This document shows positions 3,781-35,646 of a stretch of 64,000 nt of DNA, one piece after another. The position numbers were made by a program, and so were the translations under genes. Under the pieces are notes generated by a model. That model was not told where the DNA came from. It saw only the letters and a program-made list of their open reading frames with translations, and did not search any database. Source of the stretch: Clostridiales bacterium (lineage in GTDB: Bacteria; Bacillota; Clostridia; Lachnospirales; Lachnospiraceae); assembly GCA_023663185.1 (NCBI GenBank), contig JAMPHY010000005.1:124001-188000 (forward strand), given 5' to 3'. The first letter of the stretch is position 1. Each line of letters begins with the position of its first letter.

Positions 3781-4444
3781 TACAGGCAGCATGGAAGTTA
3801 TATCTGTATCTGAATTTATGATTTGTATTATTGCTTCACTTGTTATAGGATTTATAATAGCAGTTATGTATATGTATAAGTCTACATATTCCAAAAGTTT
3901 TATCGTTACGCTTGCCACGCTGCCTGCGGTAGTGTGCGTGGTAATCATGATGGTGAACGGCAATATAGGCGCGGGCGTTGCGGTTGCAGGGGCTTTCAGC
4001 CTGGTGCGGTTTCGTTCTGTTCCCGGTACGGCGAAAGAAATCGGAGTCATTTTCTTAGCGATGGGGGCGGGGCTTATTGCAGGCATGGGGTATATAGCGT
4101 ATGCGCTCCTTTTTGCAGTAGCTATCGGGCTTATCAATATGGTATATTCGCATATCGGATTTGGGGAAAAGCATTATGCCGACTTGGATAAGACCATGCA
4201 CATTACGATTCCAGAAGACTTGGATTATTATGATGTATTTGACGATATATTTGCCAAGTATACGAACAAGTGTGAGCTTATTAATGTGAAAAGCACTAAT
4301 ATGGGGAGCCTTTTCAAGCTTACTTATAATATCTCGTTTAAAGAAAAAAATACGGAAAAAGCGTTTATTGACGAGGTGCGCTGTAGGAATGGCAATTTGG
4401 AGATAATATTGTCCAATCGGGATAATTATGCGGTGGAGCTTTAA
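3749..4444 (+). CDS. DUF4956 membrane protein
   Basis: This 231-residue protein has an N-terminal membrane domain with about four hydrophobic segments (residues about 20-45, 50-72, 75-90 and 98-130) and a soluble C-terminal half. The signature GAGVAVAGAFSLVRFRSVPGTAKEIG, a small-residue loop with paired arginines, is typical of DUF4956. The family nearly always accompanies VTC-domain polymerases and is thought to form the membrane partner. The start overlaps the VTC gene by 32 bp, with AAAGGA upstream, so translation is probably coupled. A long palindromic repeat follows before the next operon gene. The biochemical role is not established. Confidence 0.85.
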   Translation: MLKNIFRGLFDTGSMEVISVSEFMICIIASLVIGFIIAVMYMYKSTYSKSFIVTLATLPAVVCVVIMMVNGNIGAGVAVAGAFSLVRFRSVPGTAKEIGVIFLAMGAGLIAGMGYIAYALLFAVAIGLINMVYSHIGFGEKHYADLDKTMHITIPEDLDYYDVFDDIFAKYTNKCELINVKSTNMGSLFKLTYNISFKEKNTEKAFIDEVRCRNGNLEIILSNRDNYAVEL

Positions 4445-4456
4445 TGATGGCTGAAT

Positions 4457-4676
4457 GCTGCATGAACTCATATGATTCCCCTTGAGGTACGCTTTCGCTC
4501 CTTGTAAAATCGCAGCGGTACTAAGTTCAAAAGTCACTTCGCGTCTTTTTCACTAAAGTACAAGACCACTTGCAGTGGTCTGCGTTTTACAAGGACCTCA
4601 AGAGGGTGCTATGCGCCAGTGGCGCATGTTTAGCACCGACCGGAACGGAGTGTAGAAGCATATGAGTTCATGCAGC
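4457..4676 (+). repeat. Intergenic palindromic repeat, family copy 1
   Basis: This is a 220-bp element whose ends are inverted repeats (GCTGCATGAACTCATATG against its complement at 4658-4676). Inside lie further nested stems and the family core GCGGTACTAAG near 4513. This copy carries an extra insert in the right arm with its own hairpin (GGTGCT at 4598 pairing with AGCACC at 4632). It lies inside the VTC operon between the DUF4956 and lipoprotein genes. Related copies are at 29026, 40726 (reversed) and 50022. No protein is encoded. Confidence 0.8.
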
Positions 4677-4735
4677 CCAAAGATTGTGAATAAGTAATAC
4701 TTAAATAAGTAGGAAATGAAGGAAGGGGAATAGAA

Positions 4736-6622
4736 GTGAAAAAATTTATATACTTTGTAAAGATTTTGTCACTTGCAATAGCAATATGTCTGTTTGCAAC
4801 GTCGTGTGGAAGTAATGCAGAAACAGTTTCGCAGGAAGTAAACTCGCAGGGGGCTGACTCGCAAGGAACTAACTCACAGAAAGAGGATTCGCAAGGAACA
4901 GATTCACAAAGTCTAAATGCGTCGGAGCTTTTTTCCAACCGTGATTTGTCATGGGAGTATGACGAATCGGAATGCGAAAAAGTAGAACTTGCCGACAATA
5001 ATTCTACATCTAACTCAAAGGGAGTAGAGATAGACGGCAATGTTGTTACGATAACAAAGGAAGGAATTTATATATTGAGCGGAACCCTTAGCGACGGCAT
5101 GATAATAGTCGATACGGATAAGACGCAGAAGATCCAGCTTGTGTTGAATGGAGTAAACATTAACAGCGCCGACTCAGCAGCGATATATGTAAAAAAGGCG
5201 GACAAAGTATTTATCACTCTGGCTGACGGCAGCGAAAATATACTCTCGAATGGCGGAAGTTTTACGGCGATAGACGATAATAATATTGATGCGGTCATTT
5301 TCTCTAAAGACGACCTTACTCTAAACGGCAAGGGAAGTTATAATATAGTTCTGAGCGCGGATAATAGTTTTTCCAAAGACGACATTACCATAGAGGGCAC
5401 GGGAAGCCTTACTATATCCTCGCCGGCGGGACATGGTATTGTGTCAAAAGACGAACTTGTAATAACAGGCGGGGCGTATTATATCAGCGCATTATCGCAT
5501 GGGCTTTCGGGTAAAGACATCGTGGCGATAGCAGATGGATATTTTGAAATAGATGCGGGGGAAGACGCCATACATTCTGTAAATAACGACGACTATTCTG
5601 TGGGAAATATATATATTGGCGACGGAGTATATGACCTAAGGGCAAAAAGCGATGGAATAAGCGCCATAAATGAGGTATGTATCGAAGGCGGCAGCATTAT
5701 TATAGCTGATTCGTATGAAGGTATCGAAGGCAGAATTATAAATATAAGCGACGGCGTTATAAGCCTTAATGCGTCAGACGACGGAATAAACGCTACCGAC
5801 AAGCGTGAAAATGCGGACGATAATGCAGACAAAATGCAGGGCGGTATGATGGGAGACGTGCAGAGCGACGCCAGCATAAATATATCAGGCGGCGTTACCA
5901 TGATTAACGCCGAGGGCGACGGTCTTGATTCCAACGGATATATTACAGTGACAGGCGGCGAAGTTTATGTGGCGGGTTCATCAGGCGGTCAGGACGGCGC
6001 GCTTGATTATGGCATAGACGCCAGCATAAGCGGCGGCATTGTTGTAGCCGCAGGACAGAGCAATATGGCGCAGAATTTTGGCAATAATTCGGCTCAGGGT
6101 TCAATACTTGTCAATACAAATACTCAGAACGCGGCAGGCAGCGATATTGTTCTGCTTGACAAAGACGGAAATACGCTTGTGGAATGGACGATAGGGAAAA
6201 GCTATAATTCTGTGGTGGTAAGCTGTAAGGAGATAGCTGATAAAGAGTCATATACGCTTATGACGGGCGATACGGCGACTGAGGTTACGATGGACGGTCT
6301 GATTTATGGCGGCGGGTTCGGAACTCCCGGTGGAATGGGTGGTCGCGGAGGCTTTGGCGGTCACGGCGGAATGGGCGGCTTTAATGGCGGTGAACGTCCG
6401 GAAGGATTTAGAGAATTTGACGGAAGCGAACTGCCGGAGGATTTTAGAGAATTTGACGGAGGCGAACCACCGGAGGACTTTAGAGAATTTGACGGAAGCG
6501 AACCGCCGGAGGACTTTAGAGAATTTGACGGAAGCGAACCGCCGGAGGACTTTAAAAGATTTGGCGAAGGCGAGCTGCCGGAAGGATTTGGACATTTTCC
6601 TCAAACTGAGAGTACAGAGTAG
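4736..6622 (+). CDS. Secreted lipoprotein with DUF4353-type beta-helix (carbohydrate-binding-like)
   Basis: This 628-residue surface lipoprotein starts with GTG at 4736 behind GAAGGGG. The signal peptide ends in a lipobox (FATSC, Cys24). A Ser/Gln-rich linker follows (repeated DSQGT/NSQ), then a long region of repeated Gly-Asp turns and short strands (residues about 70-430) that fits the right-handed beta-helix annotated as carbohydrate-binding DUF4353. A Gly/Phe-rich stretch (about 525-555) and four 12-residue acidic repeats ending in PEDF close the protein. It lies between the DUF4956 gene and the two-component system, 15 bp before the regulator, and is probably displayed on the cell surface as part of this module. 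Ligand and role are unknown. The acidic tail could bind cations. Confidence 0.8.
   Translation: MKKFIYFVKILSLAIAICLFATSCGSNAETVSQEVNSQGADSQGTNSQKEDSQGTDSQSLNASELFSNRDLSWEYDESECEKVELADNNSTSNSKGVEIDGNVVTITKEGIYILSGTLSDGMIIVDTDKTQKIQLVLNGVNINSADSAAIYVKKADKVFITLADGSENILSNGGSFTAIDDNNIDAVIFSKDDLTLNGKGSYNIVLSADNSFSKDDITIEGTGSLTISSPAGHGIVSKDELVITGGAYYISALSHGLSGKDIVAIADGYFEIDAGEDAIHSVNNDDYSVGNIYIGDGVYDLRAKSDGISAINEVCIEGGSIIIADSYEGIEGRIINISDGVISLNASDDGINATDKRENADDNADKMQGGMMGDVQSDASINISGGVTMINAEGDGLDSNGYITVTGGEVYVAGSSGGQDGALDYGIDASISGGIVVAAGQSNMAQNFGNNSAQGSILVNTNTQNAAGSDIVLLDKDGNTLVEWTIGKSYNSVVVSCKEIADKESYTLMTGDTATEVTMDGLIYGGGFGTPGGMGGRGGFGGHGGMGGFNGGERPEGFREFDGSELPEDFREFDGGEPPEDFREFDGSEPPEDFREFDGSEPPEDFKRFGEGELPEGFGHFPQTESTE
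6413..6556 (+). repeat. Four tandem 36-bp coding repeats
   Basis: Four consecutive 36-bp units, each starting GAATTTGACGGA, encode the acidic 12-residue repeat of the lipoprotein tail. Units 2-4 differ by only one or a few bases. The unit is a multiple of three, so slippage would change tail length without a frameshift. Confidence 0.9.
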
Positions 6623-22110: not shown

Positions 22111-22167
22111 GACAATATATTCGTAACAAATATGTAACATTTGTAACTGAAATGTTATATTTCCTAA

Positions 22168-31894: not shown

Positions 31895-32428
31895 TTATTC
31901 AATTTTTATGGTAAATCCCTCATATATCCCCACCGGAACTTCTTCTCCAAAACTATACTGTTCTACGATATCATTTTCAAATCCATAAACTGTTATCATT
32001 TGTTTTTCCGGATCAACAATCCAATACTCCCGCACGCCAACAGTGCGGTATTTGAATAATTTGGTCATATAATCTCTCGGTTTAGTACTTGGTGAAACAA
32101 TTTCTATTATCCAGTCGGGCGCACCGTGGCAGCCTTTGTCATCTAGTTTAGATAAATCACAAATCACAGAAATATCAGGCTCTACATAATTTGTGTCGTC
32201 ATCATTCAAAAAAACAGCAAATGGAGCTGCCAAAGCCTCACATTTTCCATTGTTATTATCAATATAATTAGATATTGCCTGATGTAGTTTTCGGCTTATC
32301 CTTTGGTGATTCCAACTTGGCGGAGATATATAATAAATTTTTCCATCAATTAATTCTGCACGTTTTCCGTCCGGCAATGTATAAATGTCATCAATTGTAT
32401 ATATTTCTTCTTTTTTTAATGCATCCAT
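31895..32428 (-). CDS. Uma2-family (DUF820) PD-(D/E)xK-like protein
   Basis: This 177-residue protein has the DUF820/Uma2 pattern: TLPDGKRAELIDGKIYYISPPS, VEPDISVICD, APDWIIEIVSPST, and FKYRTVGVREYWIVDPE. The fold is restriction-endonuclease-like with Asp, Glu and Lys candidates in PDISV, IIEIV and the following K. The biological role of the family is unknown. I chose Met at 32428 with GGGGTG upstream. It has its own sigma-A promoter (32453-32481) and lies directly in the path of the sigma-28 promoter of the invertible segment in its present orientation, so it may be one of the two switched targets. Confidence 0.85.
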   Translation of the reverse strand: MDALKKEEIYTIDDIYTLPDGKRAELIDGKIYYISPPSWNHQRISRKLHQAISNYIDNNNGKCEALAAPFAVFLNDDDTNYVEPDISVICDLSKLDDKGCHGAPDWIIEIVSPSTKPRDYMTKLFKYRTVGVREYWIVDPEKQMITVYGFENDIVEQYSFGEEVPVGIYEGFTIKIE

Positions 32429-32481: not shown

Positions 32482-32560
32482 CCATTCACATTTTAAATGG
32501 TAGACAGAAAAATTTTACGTATTAAAATTAATATTATATGGGAATAATATAAAAAGAATG

Positions 32561-32586
32561 CAACATTTGTATATGAAATGTTGCAT
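32561..32586. repeat. Left inverted repeat of the invertible switch
   Basis: This site is itself two 12-bp arms (AATGCAACATTT and complement, 32557-32587) around a 7-bp asymmetric spacer GTATATG (32569-32575). Its 26 central bases are identical to the reverse complement of 33380-33405. Arm-spacer-arm geometry with a 7-bp spacer is that of a tyrosine-recombinase core site. Confidence 0.9.
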
Positions 32587-32609
32587 TAATCACTTGCCTT
32601 ACACTACAT

Positions 32610-32636
32610 ATATCGGAGGCTATTTAAAATACTTTA
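32610..32636 (-). promoter_or_regulatory. Sigma-28 (FliA/SigD) promoter inside the invertible segment, facing left
   Basis: Read on the minus strand: TAAAGTAT (32629-32636), 11 bp, TCCGATAT (32610-32617). The FliA consensus is TAAAGTTT-N11-GCCGATAA and the Bacillus SigD -10 is GCCGATAT, so this has exact spacing and 7 of 8 matches in both boxes by the SigD form. In the present orientation transcription crosses the left repeat toward the Uma2 gene. After inversion it would read into csrA and flagellin. Confidence 0.8.
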
Positions 32637-32684
32637 TAGCAGAATTTGAAAAAATTAAAAAATTTTTTAAGTATTTTATTATTC

Positions 32685-33266
32685 TTACAGACACACTTCC
32701 AAATATACCTTATCCCTGTCGTCCTGCTCAATACATAAATATTGCTTTGTGATACGGTAGGAAGCATGGTTATATATATCTTGCAGCATTGCAGGCGGCA
32801 CGCCTTGTTTCCAAGCATGATAGCCGAAGGTCTTTCGTAGTGAGTGGCAGCTTACCCGTTCTTCAATTCCGGCATACTCAGCCGCTTCTCTAATAATACG
32901 GAATGCCTGCGAACGCGAGAGCGGGATTTCAGGTTTACGGATACTTGGGAAAAGATATTGCTCTTCGTCAGTATATTCTAAATCGCTTTGCAATATTTTC
33001 AATGCGCTTTTAACCGCGGCATTGACGGCAACAATTCGCTCTTTTCCTGTCTTTTGCTCAATTACATAAATATGGCTTCTAAAACAGCCGCCCTTCATAT
33101 TAAATACATCTTTCCACTTTAGATTCAAAAGGTCTCCGATTCTAAAAGCGGTGTTCAACCCTAGAATAATCATAGCATAGTTTCTGTAAACAGGTTTCTC
33201 TGTTAAAAAATATTCCTTGAATTTTTCCAGTTTTTCTTCATCTTTGATGGGACGAGTTGTACTCAT
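32685..33266 (-). CDS. Small tyrosine recombinase (FimB/FimE-like DNA invertase)
   Basis: This 193-residue protein is only the catalytic domain of a tyrosine recombinase, without the N-terminal core-binding domain of most phage integrases. The active-site set is complete: Arg42 (NTAFRIGDLL), a beta-hairpin Lys near residue 75 (EQKTGKERIV), His141 and Arg144 (CHSLRKTFGYH), His167 (IYNHAS) and nucleophile Tyr176 (TKQYLCI). Size and layout are those of FimB/FimE-type phase-variation invertases. The start at 33266 has AAAGGAG eight bases upstream. The gene lies between the two inverted repeats, so it should invert itself together with the sigma-28 promoter. No excisionase or other recombinase is nearby. 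Confidence 0.92.
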   Translation of the reverse strand: MSTTRPIKDEEKLEKFKEYFLTEKPVYRNYAMIILGLNTAFRIGDLLNLKWKDVFNMKGGCFRSHIYVIEQKTGKERIVAVNAAVKSALKILQSDLEYTDEEQYLFPSIRKPEIPLSRSQAFRIIREAAEYAGIEERVSCHSLRKTFGYHAWKQGVPPAMLQDIYNHASYRITKQYLCIEQDDRDKVYLEVCL

Positions 33267-33357
33267 AAAATTTCTCCTTTTTTTAAAATTTACTTTTTTG
33301 TACGGTCAGCGCAGTAAATGTGCAGACTTGCTGAATAGTTAATATGATTCATGTTTA

Positions 33358-33385
33358 ACTATACAACAATACGTTGTTTATGCAA
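33358..33385 (-). promoter_or_regulatory. Candidate promoter of the recombinase, overlapping the right repeat
   Basis: On the minus strand TTGCAT (33380-33385), 16 bp, TATAGT (33358-33363). The -35 box lies within an arm of the right recombinase site, so recombinase binding could repress its own gene. An AACAA-TACG-TTGTT palindrome lies in the spacer. Confidence 0.45.
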
Positions 33386-33405
33386 CATTTCATATACAAA
33401 TGTTG
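33380..33405. repeat. Right inverted repeat of the invertible switch
   Basis: Its 26 bases are the exact reverse complement of 32561-32586. Arms TGCAACATTT (33381-33390) and AAATGTTG surround the spacer CATATAC (33391-33397). One outer base differs from the left site (A for G), which weakens its outer arm by one pair. The csrA start codon is about 49 bp downstream. Confidence 0.9.
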
Positions 33406-33453
33406 TATAGCAGGGCGGCACTTTATAAAAAGAAAAAGCAGGGAGGTTTTAAG

Positions 33454-33735
33454 ATGTTAAGACTTACAGTTAGCGCAGAAGACTACTTGATGATTGGGGA
33501 AGACGTAAAAATTGTTTTCTTAGGCGGCAGCAAAAACCATTTGAGAATTATGATTGACGCACCCAAAGAACTTAATGTAGTTCGCAGCAAGGTTATCGAG
33601 AACAACACGACTAATCCGGAGGAGAAGGCAAAACTACCGCATTATCATGCAGTCCCTGATTTGCCGGAGAAGTATCGTAAGAAAAAAATTGTGGTAAACG
33701 ATTCCGTAAGAAAAGCGAAGGCAGCATCGTCATAA
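33454..33735 (+). CDS. csrA: CsrA-family post-transcriptional regulator with extended tail
   Basis: The first 50 residues of this 93-residue protein follow CsrA closely (MLRLTVSAEDYLMIGEDVKI, VFLGGSKNHLRIMIDAPKEL, NVVRSKVIE), including the APKE and R-x-x motif that form the RNA-binding edge. The usual basic residues just after the start (L-T-R-K) are replaced by LTVS, and about 40 extra residues follow (PHYHAVPDLPEKYRKKK). CsrA dimers bind GGA motifs and, in Bacillus, block translation of flagellin. I chose ATG at 33454 behind GGGAGG. It sits between the right recombination site and the flagellin gene, 135 bp upstream of the latter. No promoter is obvious between the repeat and the gene, so its expression may depend on the switch. 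Confidence 0.85.
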   Translation: MLRLTVSAEDYLMIGEDVKIVFLGGSKNHLRIMIDAPKELNVVRSKVIENNTTNPEEKAKLPHYHAVPDLPEKYRKKKIVVNDSVRKAKAASS

Positions 33736-33759: not shown

Positions 33760-33825
33760 CCCGGAGCAATCCTAGGGGCTTCGGGATTATTCATAAAAAC
33801 AAAAAGAAACTAAAAACAAAGCAAC

Positions 33826-33863
33826 GGTCGTAAACGGATTTACGGCTGGCAAACACAAGGAGG
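33826..33863 (+). promoter_or_regulatory. Candidate paired CsrA-binding sites in the flagellin leader
   Basis: A hairpin with a core stem CGTAAA/TTTACG (33829-33844) displays GGA in its four-base loop CGGA. A second GGA lies in the Shine-Dalgarno sequence ACAAGGAGG (33855-33863), which resembles the CsrA consensus ACARGGAUG. The two GGA motifs are 23 bases apart. A CsrA dimer could bridge them and block ribosome binding, as known for Bacillus hag. Confidence 0.55.
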
Positions 33864-33870
33864 TAACTTT

Positions 33871-35646
33871 ATGATAGTACAACACAACATTACAGCGATG
33901 AACGCCAACAGAATGCTTGGTATCACAACAAGCGCACAGGCAAAGTCCACAGAGAAATTGTCATCAGGTTATAAGATTAACCGTGCAGCAGATGACGCAG
34001 CAGGATTGGCAATCAGTGAGAAGATGAGACGTCAGGCAAGAGGTCTTACACAGGCAGCAGCTAACGCACAGGACGGTATCAGTGCAGTACAGACCGCAGA
34101 AGGCGCGCTGACAGAAGTTCATGACATGTTACAGAGAATGAACGAACTGGCTATTAAGGCAGGCAACGGCACAATGTCAGAATCTGACAGACAATCCGTT
34201 CAGGACGAAATCGACCAGCTCATCACAGAGATTGACCGTGTATCTGAGACAACTAAGTTCAATGAGACTTATTTGTTGAAAGGTTCGGGAGATAAGAGTG
34301 CGACTGTTAAGGCAGAAGCAAATGTTGGTGGTATTACACAGGAAGCGACTGTTATTGCCGCTAAGGGAAACATTTTTAGCGGAAAGATTAAAGCAGAGGA
34401 TGCGCTCGCATCAGGAACGGAAGATACAGCAACCGTGACTTACAAGGACGCTGATGGTAATACGAGAACCAAAGATGTTGTCTTTAAAGCTGGCGCAAGT
34501 GCGAAGGACACGGCTGCCAATATTGCAGAAGCGATTAATGATGATAAAGACCTGAAGGCAATATTCAAAGCTTATGCTGACGAGACGGGTAAGCTGACCG
34601 TAGAGTCTAAGTTAAGTGGCAACAAAACGGATAACAGCAAAAACTCTGTGACTGATATAGAGTTTAAAGCTAAAGATGGAAAGTTGACAACAGCTTTTGA
34701 CGGAGATACGACTAAAACTCCGGCAGTTGGTGAATCGGTAAAGATTTCTCTGACAGACAAAGATGGAACTATGAAATTGACATCTGGAAATTCTATCACG
34801 ATTGATGGCAAGACGTATACCTATGACAAGGATAAAGCGTCAACCACAGATGATGCCAATACGTTTAAGAGCATTGAAGATTTGCAGAACCTTCTGGGTA
34901 ATAATTATGAAGTAACAGTAAATGTAGACAGTAAGGTAACATACAAGACTGTACATCATAACAGTTCCGATGGTACGGGGGCAATTACAGACGCAAATGG
35001 TGGTCCGGTTTCAACGGAGAATAAAATTGAATCTGATGGAACACTGAAAGCAGCATCAAAAGCAACTGAAATAGAATCATTAGCACTGACAGATTTTGAC
35101 GGTGTGCCGGAAGCAGACGCAGCAGCGCCAAATAATGTAGCTGCAAGTGCTGGGGATGCGGTAACATACAAAAGTGCAGTTTCAATGGCAGGACTTTCGT
35201 TAAACATTGCCCGCAAAGCAACAGTTGATATGTCTGATGCATTGCATTTCAGCCTTCAGGTAGGTGCTGACACAACGGAAGAGAATAAGATTAACGTTGA
35301 TATCGAGTCCATGAGCGCGAAGAGCCTCGGCATTGATAATGTATCCGTAACAGGAAAAGACTCTACGAATGCAGACGAAGCTGTAAATACAGTTGCAGAC
35401 GCAATCGCTAAGGTTTCAAAACAGCGTTCAGCACTCGGCGCTATCCAGAACAGACTGGAGCACACAATCAACAACCTCAACAACGTTGTTGAGAACACCA
35501 CAAGCGCAGAAGCAGCAATCCGTGATACCGACATTGCTACTGAGATGGTTAAATATGCTAACAACAACATCTTACAGCAGGCTGGTACATCAATGCTGGC
35601 ACAGGCTAACCAGTCTAATCAGTTGGCACTGTCATTACTCGGTTAA
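33871..35646 (+). CDS. fliC: Flagellin, CBir1-like
   Basis: This 591-residue flagellin has conserved D0/D1 ends (MIVQHNITAMNANRMLGITT; KLSSGYKINRAADDAAGL; C-terminal TEMVKYANNNILQQAGTSML and NQLALSLLG). The central 150-480 region is variable, Thr/Asp/Lys-rich and probably forms the exposed domain. The N-terminal half strongly resembles the Lachnospiraceae flagellins known as CBir1 antigens, including the TLR5-contact stretch LQRMNELAI. The start at 33871 lies behind AAGGAGG. It follows csrA and the invertible switch, with two terminators after it. It is the only flagellar structural gene in the window. Confidence 0.98.
   Translation: MIVQHNITAMNANRMLGITTSAQAKSTEKLSSGYKINRAADDAAGLAISEKMRRQARGLTQAAANAQDGISAVQTAEGALTEVHDMLQRMNELAIKAGNGTMSESDRQSVQDEIDQLITEIDRVSETTKFNETYLLKGSGDKSATVKAEANVGGITQEATVIAAKGNIFSGKIKAEDALASGTEDTATVTYKDADGNTRTKDVVFKAGASAKDTAANIAEAINDDKDLKAIFKAYADETGKLTVESKLSGNKTDNSKNSVTDIEFKAKDGKLTTAFDGDTTKTPAVGESVKISLTDKDGTMKLTSGNSITIDGKTYTYDKDKASTTDDANTFKSIEDLQNLLGNNYEVTVNVDSKVTYKTVHHNSSDGTGAITDANGGPVSTENKIESDGTLKAASKATEIESLALTDFDGVPEADAAAPNNVAASAGDAVTYKSAVSMAGLSLNIARKATVDMSDALHFSLQVGADTTEENKINVDIESMSAKSLGIDNVSVTGKDSTNADEAVNTVADAIAKVSKQRSALGAIQNRLEHTINNLNNVVENTTSAEAAIRDTDIATEMVKYANNNILQQAGTSMLAQANQSNQLALSLLG

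Follow-up and report, generated by a model that had tools for sequence, protein, structure and literature searches.

In the gut, flagellin is both an important target of immunity and a receptor for phages. The closest described arrangement to the one reported here is the Hin/fljBA switch of Salmonella, in which Hin is a serine recombinase and FljA acts post-transcriptionally. The excerpts of PMC9368917 and PMC2784873 used here place the recombinase gene inside the inverted segment and have the segment promoter drive an operon of flagellin and regulator in one orientation. In one Hin orientation FljB is expressed and fliC is suppressed by FljA, a suppression that the cited portion of PMC9368917 states as transcriptional. 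Other switches rely on a tyrosine recombinase and inverted repeats, among them the RecV switches of C. difficile (flg and cwpV). According to an excerpt of PMC2784873, recV is not near cwpV, the cwpV promoter lies outside the inverted DNA and a terminator has been proposed in the OFF transcript; the same excerpt places the promoter of E. coli fimS between the inverted repeats and the fim recombinases beside the segment. In Clostridia, inverton group 139 with invertase group 35 has a tyrosine-type recombinase near inverted repeats, and its orientation shifts in culture (PMC11892184, in part). The text of PMC11892184 has no word starting with "flagell". Among the literature matches listed, subscription papers being outside their scope, there was no description of a self-encoded flagellin switch in Lachnospiraceae.

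The locus described here lies in the window, a stretch of 64,000 nucleotides from a Lachnospiraceae genome (GCA_023663185.1, contig JAMPHY010000005.1, positions 124,001 to 188,000). It comprises a tyrosine recombinase gene bounded by two inverted sites, followed by a csrA-family gene, which begins 46 nt after the proximal site, and a flagellin gene (Table 1). We conclude that it is very probably a promoter switch that works by DNA inversion, encodes its own recombinase and controls an alternative flagellin.

Table 1 Features of the switch locus (positions in the window).
Feature	Position	Strand	Basis
Hairpin with T-rich tail, distal site and outer flank, terminator-like	32541..32591	-	Folding
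csrA-distal recombination site, 10-bp arms, 7-bp spacer GTATATG	32558..32586	.	Repeat and pattern search
Sigma28-type promoter-like sequence TAAAGTATTTTAAATAGCCTCCGATAT, directed outward at the distal end of the segment (sequenced orientation OFF)	32610..32636	-	Motif, conserved in related loci
Tyrosine recombinase, 193 aa, inside the invertible segment	32685..33266	-	Pfam Phage_integrase, catalytic residues, model
csrA-proximal recombination site, spacer CATATAC, inverted	33380..33408	.	Repeat and pattern search
csrA paralogue, switch-linked subfamily, first gene of presumed switched operon	33454..33735	+	PF02599
Hairpin with CGGA loop in the switched flagellin leader, possible CsrA-type site	33825..33848	+	Folding
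Flagellin, 591 aa, second gene of presumed switched operon	33871..35646	+	Domain match

Tyrosine recombinases share the catalytic motif R, K, H-x-x-R, H, Y, and the FimB and FimE recombinases are about 200 aa long. The sole Pfam match of the 193-aa protein is Phage_integrase (PF00589; E 4e-29, 102 bits against a cut-off of 27.1). Residues R42, K72, H141, R144 and H167 are present in 83 of 83 aligned recombinases and Y176 in 81 of 83; the alignment left out L106, L116, L168 and L170. The AlphaFold model has a mean pLDDT of 90 and its closest match in the PDB is XerA (5hxy, E 3e-7), the best matches being XerA and the Tn1549, integron, Xer-like and lambda integrases. The protein is predicted to catalyze the strand exchange. 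A sequence-only reading of the same DNA had called it a FimB-like tyrosine recombinase. The Phage_integrase match bears out the second part of this name; the FimB label was dropped because the scores fall below the cut-offs of the NCBIfam models of tyrosine-type DNA invertases (PRK09871, 49.7 bits against 222; PRK09870, 41.1 against 221). The top NCBIfam score, 92.5 bits for XerA, also lies under its cut-off of 220. Judging by its length, the recombinase presumably lacks the usual N-terminal DNA-binding domain, like FimB and FimE. Its gene lies between the two sites and hence inside the invertible DNA, unlike in the RecV system, as the sequence-only reading had observed.

That reading had also reported two identical inverted 26-bp sequences, each with arms around an asymmetric 7-bp spacer, and both repeats (32561–32586 and the complement of 33380–33405) and spacers (GTATATG at 32569–32575, CATATAC at 33391–33397) were recovered exactly. 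The csrA-distal site reads TGCAACATTT-GTATATG-AAATGTTGCA (32559–32585) and the inverted csrA-proximal site reads TGCAACATTT-CATATAC-AAATGTTGTA (33381–33407), with the consensus TGCAACATTT-N7-AAATGTTG(C/T)A common to both and arms that are 94% complementary over 32 nt. A search of the window with the site pattern, allowing up to 3 mismatches, returned 3 matches, the two sites and a degenerate one at 22133–22159, compared with a mean of 0.01 in shuffled sequences. The degenerate copy, TGTAACATTTGTAACTGAAATGTTATA, stands alone, with no partner found within the window. Across the whole genome, when up to 2 mismatches are allowed, the arms pattern occurs at 7 places, corresponding to three pairs and the degenerate copy, and the backward-read control pattern at 3.

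The assembly (3.83 Mb, 54 contigs) contains three copies of the recombinase with 100, 91 and 69% identity, together with four more distant integrases. Each of the three copies sits within an inverted pair of its own; the arms of the pairs are nearly identical, and their spacers are GTATATG, GTATGAA and GTATATA. All three stand immediately before a csrA-like gene followed by a flagellin gene. The genome has four CsrA matches, one adjoining fliW, and eight flagellin-N matches, the weakest of which was taken for FlgL; three flagellins stand behind switches. Within the genus, the recombinase occurs in 40 of 77 genomes (E 1e-40) and the csrA paralogue in 38 of 77 (E 1e-10), and all 38 are among the 40. 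In the other two, G034 and G040, the sole such recombinase lies at sugar loci (L107 and L105, respectively). In a draw across the family (397 genomes, 334 genera), the recombinase was found in 30 genomes from 28 genera and the csrA paralogue (E 1e-8) in 22 genomes from 20 genera. A genome may carry up to three csrA-linked switches.

The csrA-linked loci first scored numbered 74, including two that come from human faecal records catalogued as phage, and the addition of L302–L305 brought the total to 78; L127 coincides with L154, and L301 with L168, and each place was counted once. A flagellin N-domain is encoded downstream of csrA in 71 of the 74 loci, the misses being L060 (a run of N), L155 (cut by the contig end) and L209. 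A scan of further genome contigs gave 5 loci, 3 of which are contigs of G036, G054 and G042. The viral contig scan gave 65 loci, and within that scan a csrA match was found in none of them. The genus of G384, with 1 genome, and that of G390, with 16, yielded no new csrA-linked locus.

Several loci deviate from the common layout. The two phage-filed faecal contigs, L209 (MT837633.1) and L210 (MT837916.1), have csrA adjoining the recombinase and look like fragments of bacterial chromosomes; L210 also has a flagellin and none was matched in L209. In L145, from a single-contig genome (G455), the recombinase stands directly before a flagellin without csrA (about 3977–4762), with one site-like sequence between the two genes and no second site found nearby. 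In L208 (G036:C92) a C-terminal csrA fragment (about 6512–6601) precedes a flagellin whose ends are 99–100% identical to those of the window flagellin; 12 kb of sequence had no recombinase match, and this may be the remnant of a switch locus. Two or three tandem csrA-flagellin units occur beside one recombinase in L206 (G072), L207 (G069) and L088 (G065). Relatives of the recombinase were also seen, by eye, among apparent surface-polysaccharide or sugar genes (L105, L107, L108, L109, L110, L148, L152 and L160). In L105 and L107–L109 the element separates a pair of divergent operons, and a sigmaA-like promoter adjoins the distal site, again by eye; the arrangement looks like an either/or switch.

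Tyrosine recombinases require identical spacers in the two partner sites, and paired spacers are thus what strand exchange would leave by keeping the two sites matched. The spacers were compared in sites located by their arms alone. Of 67 loci with a recombinase that were tried, 59 had both sites at 13 or more of the 18 arm bases, and 56 had spacers of equal length, 49 of these of length 7. The two spacers are identical in 48 of the 49 seven-base pairs and in 55 of the 56 pairs over lengths 6–8. The mean match within a pair is 6.98 of 7 compared with 3.54 between loci, and the within-pair value was reached by none of 10,000 partner shuffles; 24 different seven-base spacers occur among these sites. 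When pairs were picked by complementarity of the whole site, which took in 63 of the 74 loci, 57 of 63 spacer pairs were identical, a count that is partly circular because the spacer is included and in which a few sites are mis-centred.

The presence of three copies in the genome, and of relatives at other kinds of loci, might suggest a small mobile element, namely a tyrosine-recombinase transposon bounded by terminal inverted repeats and with no regulatory role. However, all three copies precede csrA and flagellin rather than being scattered, inverted sites with asymmetric matching spacers predict inversion and not excision, and the promoter-like sequence described below keeps a constant spacing from one of the two sites. 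Because all 38 genomes of the genus with the csrA paralogue carry the recombinase, a mobile element was rejected as the main explanation, and we regard it as highly improbable.

The motif TAAA-N15-nCCGATAT, or a variant of it, lies just inside the csrA-distal site and also upstream of the unswitched flagellin of the same genome. The sigma28 consensus is TAAA N15 CCGATAT, and in Butyrivibrio TAAA N16-17 MCGATAa (PMC3720852, in part); the motif is therefore a putative sigma28-type promoter. It was searched for in a relaxed form, which also has scattered matches elsewhere, including within recombinase genes, and was scored only when within 60 nt of a site. Ten of the 74 csrA-linked loci had no scorable site pair. 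In the remaining 64 the motif is distal and faces away from csrA in 60, is proximal and faces csrA in one (L100), is missing in three with a good pair (L149, L158 and L168), and is at both ends in none. The end of the motif lies about 16–27 nt from the distal site in 59 of the 60 OFF loci. L302, from a further genus, is ON, and L303, L304 and L305 are OFF. Taken over the 78 csrA-linked loci, promoter direction gives 63 OFF, 2 ON (L100 and L302) and 13 unscored or motif-free.

The site pair of L302 is almost perfect, with 22 of 23 bases matching. L100 has a degenerate outer arm on the csrA side, and in the tree it groups with OFF loci of its own genus (L088, L091, L098 and L101–L103). Opposite orientations therefore occur between related species, a comparison that the sequence-only reading had proposed as a check; the same fixed orientation in all relatives, which would have spoken against inversion, is not what was found because L100 and L302 carry the opposite one. 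From this we infer that the segment also flips within a strain. The earlier proposal that the element flips and controls flanking genes thus gains support from L100 and L302 in its first part, and in its second is narrowed to the csrA-flagellin side.

The recombinase gene is turned towards csrA in L162, L163, L166 and L210, and in these loci the promoter still faces the distal site; the first three form one clade (support 100/96). Although the recombinase lies inside the segment in most related loci, L221 (G439) and L226 (G347) are exceptions, with promoter-only segments of about 124 and 253 bp before csrA-flagellin. Together these loci suggest that the putative promoter, rather than the recombinase, is the conserved cargo of the segment. 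A related recombinase is present on a different contig of the same genome in both G439 and G347.

Since the promoter points distally in nearly all scored loci, it might instead serve a gene on that side, and the sequenced state would then be the active one. In the window, a Uma2-domain gene (31895–32428, minus strand) does lie downstream in the sense direction. However, among the 55 loci with enough distal sequence and an ORF, the ORF closest to the distal site is not a conserved one, with 24 singletons and no cluster larger than 13. Moreover, 38 of these 55 ORFs are on the other strand and would be read antisense. The distal site is on average the more terminator-like of the two, and csrA-flagellin, found in 71 of 74 loci, is the constant partner because the distal neighbours are not conserved. 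A distal target is thus very unlikely, and control of the csrA-flagellin side is the preferred reading.

The hairpins formed by the sites and their flanks were compared in 62 loci, with L100 among those left out. The mean stem length is 16.3 pairs at the distal site and 9.9 at the proximal site, and a tail with 6 or more T among its first 10 nt follows the distal stem in 27 of 62 loci and the proximal stem in 2 of 62. Paired tests gave p of 8e-10 or less, values that are too small because the loci are related. Individual copies vary. In the window the distal stem has 14 pairs and the proximal 15, so that the proximal is no weaker, and T content after the stem is 7 of 10 against 3 of 10. In the C11 copy the proximal stem has 16 pairs and the distal 15, with 4 T after each, and neither measure shows the predicted difference. 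In L302 the flank that lies inside the segment next to csrA is complementary to the flank outside the distal site, and after in-silico inversion the distal stem grows from 13 to 16 pairs, as expected. The same operation on L100 changes the distal stem from 11 to 5 pairs and the proximal from 7 to 10, contrary to expectation, and on the window copy shortens both stems, from 14 to 11 and from 15 to 12. On average, then, the distal site is the more terminator-like, and it may act as a terminator that blocks the promoter in the OFF orientation.

The OFF to ON ratio of 63:2 by promoter direction is far from even. It may result from biased recombination, as with FimE, or from selection in the gut, and some OFF loci may be locked or switch only rarely. 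In the extreme case the element would be a relict that inverted in the past, with most copies now unable to flip and csrA-flagellin silenced for good. Besides the OFF bias, damaged recombinase genes in L068, L106 and L168 and imperfect outer arms on the csrA side in many loci agree with such a relict. It is opposed by spacers that match within pairs and differ between loci, by the retention of the catalytic residues and by the ON state of L302 with intact sites. The csrA gene is under strong purifying selection, with dN/dS over the first 60 codons below 0.1 in 11 of 12 pairs and the twelfth without an estimate, which indicates that the mostly OFF loci are still under selection. Furthermore, contig G001:C39 (L205) ends on the last base of its own proximal site, as expected if both orientations were present in the sample, and gives a hint of mixed orientation. 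We consider a general loss of flipping improbable, though less so than the two alternatives above, and retain a functional switch as the preferred reading. Enrichment of contig ends was also considered as proof of mixed orientation and was rejected; a contig end is no more than 400 nt away in 7 of 66 loci, a weak signal confounded by repeated flagellins.

By its sequence, the switch-linked CsrA is a diverged paralogue. It matches PF02599 with 59.9 bits (cut-off 27) and scores under the NCBIfam equivalog cut-offs (TIGR00202, 31.2 bits against 70.1; PRK01712, 37.7 against 73). The switch-linked proteins of the genus have a common start, MLR[LM][TS], and a similar tail. The Arg/Lys pair at positions 6–7 of canonical CsrA is absent in 52 of 52 switch-linked sequences of the genus; given this absence and the NCBIfam scores, RNA binding by the switch-linked protein is not assured. 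R44 is kept in 52 of 52, and position 4 is L in 36 and M in 16. The CsrA family is marked by Arg44 and Leu4 (PMC7652899, in part), and Arg44 is critical for RNA binding (excerpts of PMC7652899 and PMC7366521).

The unswitched flagellin, G000:C3:80651 (leader in L173, about 16486), has the same putative sigma28-type promoter, and its leader folds into GGA-loop hairpins of the CsrA-binding kind. Their loops are AGGA and AAGGAG, the latter at the ribosome-binding site, and the z value of the leader is -5.2. The switched flagellin leader has one hairpin, with a CGGA loop, and a z value of -2.1. CsrA represses flagellin translation in B. subtilis (PMC7652899, in part). Together with the hairpins of the resident leader, this makes it plausible that the paralogue silences the resident flagellin. 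Alternatives are autoregulation and interference with canonical CsrA.

The following mechanism is proposed. The recombinase encoded between the inverted sites would exchange strands at the matching 7-bp spacers and turn the segment of roughly 0.85 kb around. A promoter recognized by the flagellar sigma factor would lie at one end of the segment. In the OFF orientation, as sequenced, the promoter would face the distal site, a hairpin with a T-rich tail, and point away from csrA-flagellin, which would thus be left without such a promoter. After inversion (ON), transcription from it would cross the proximal site, whose hairpin is in most loci weaker and lacks a T tract, and continue into csrA and flagellin. 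The co-expressed CsrA paralogue might then repress translation of the other flagellin or flagellins, as FljA does for FliC in Salmonella; this FljA-like role is proposed by analogy and less surely than the switch itself. A wider proposal, that the Hin-FljB-FljA logic arose here by convergence, with several cassettes per genome that each select an alternative flagellin, a CsrA paralogue that stops translation of the resident, CsrA-controlled flagellin so that a single inversion would exchange the filament, and a recombinase family that also toggles divergent surface-polysaccharide operons, is offered tentatively, as somewhat less than an even chance.

If the proposed switch is correct, the classic Salmonella layout arose again from an unrelated recombinase in commensal Lachnospiraceae, and an RNA-binding regulator is likely to be its second arm. 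At about 0.85 kb the segment is a compact and testable part, and its sequence signature could allow the flagellin phase state to be read in metagenomic data. With the OFF state so dominant among assembled genomes, one may ask whether host or phage pressure keeps these flagellins silent.

Membership in the known switch families was considered and rejected for two of them, for Hin on the recombinase family (Phage_integrase) and for FimB on the invertase model scores and the position of the recombinase gene inside the segment. The locus shares a tyrosine recombinase and inverted repeats with the RecV switches and, with cwpV, a proposed terminator in the OFF direction; unlike at cwpV, both recombinase gene and promoter-like sequence are inside the inverted DNA. 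The position of the promoter between the repeats is that of fimS, whereas the fim recombinases are encoded beside their segment. Group 139 likewise has a tyrosine-type recombinase near its repeats, and in two examples the 206 and 228 bp between the repeats (PMC11892184, in part) are too short for an internal recombinase. The likeness to Hin/fljBA is the closest, with the recombinase gene inside the segment and a promoter-like sequence that in one of two orientations would drive an operon of flagellin and regulator. In contrast to the Salmonella switch, the recombinase is of the tyrosine and not the serine type, the regulator gene, which encodes a CsrA paralogue, precedes the flagellin gene, and a genome may hold several such switches. 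The locus is thus best read as the Hin/fljBA layout built from an unrelated recombinase, with a CsrA-family protein in place of FljA.
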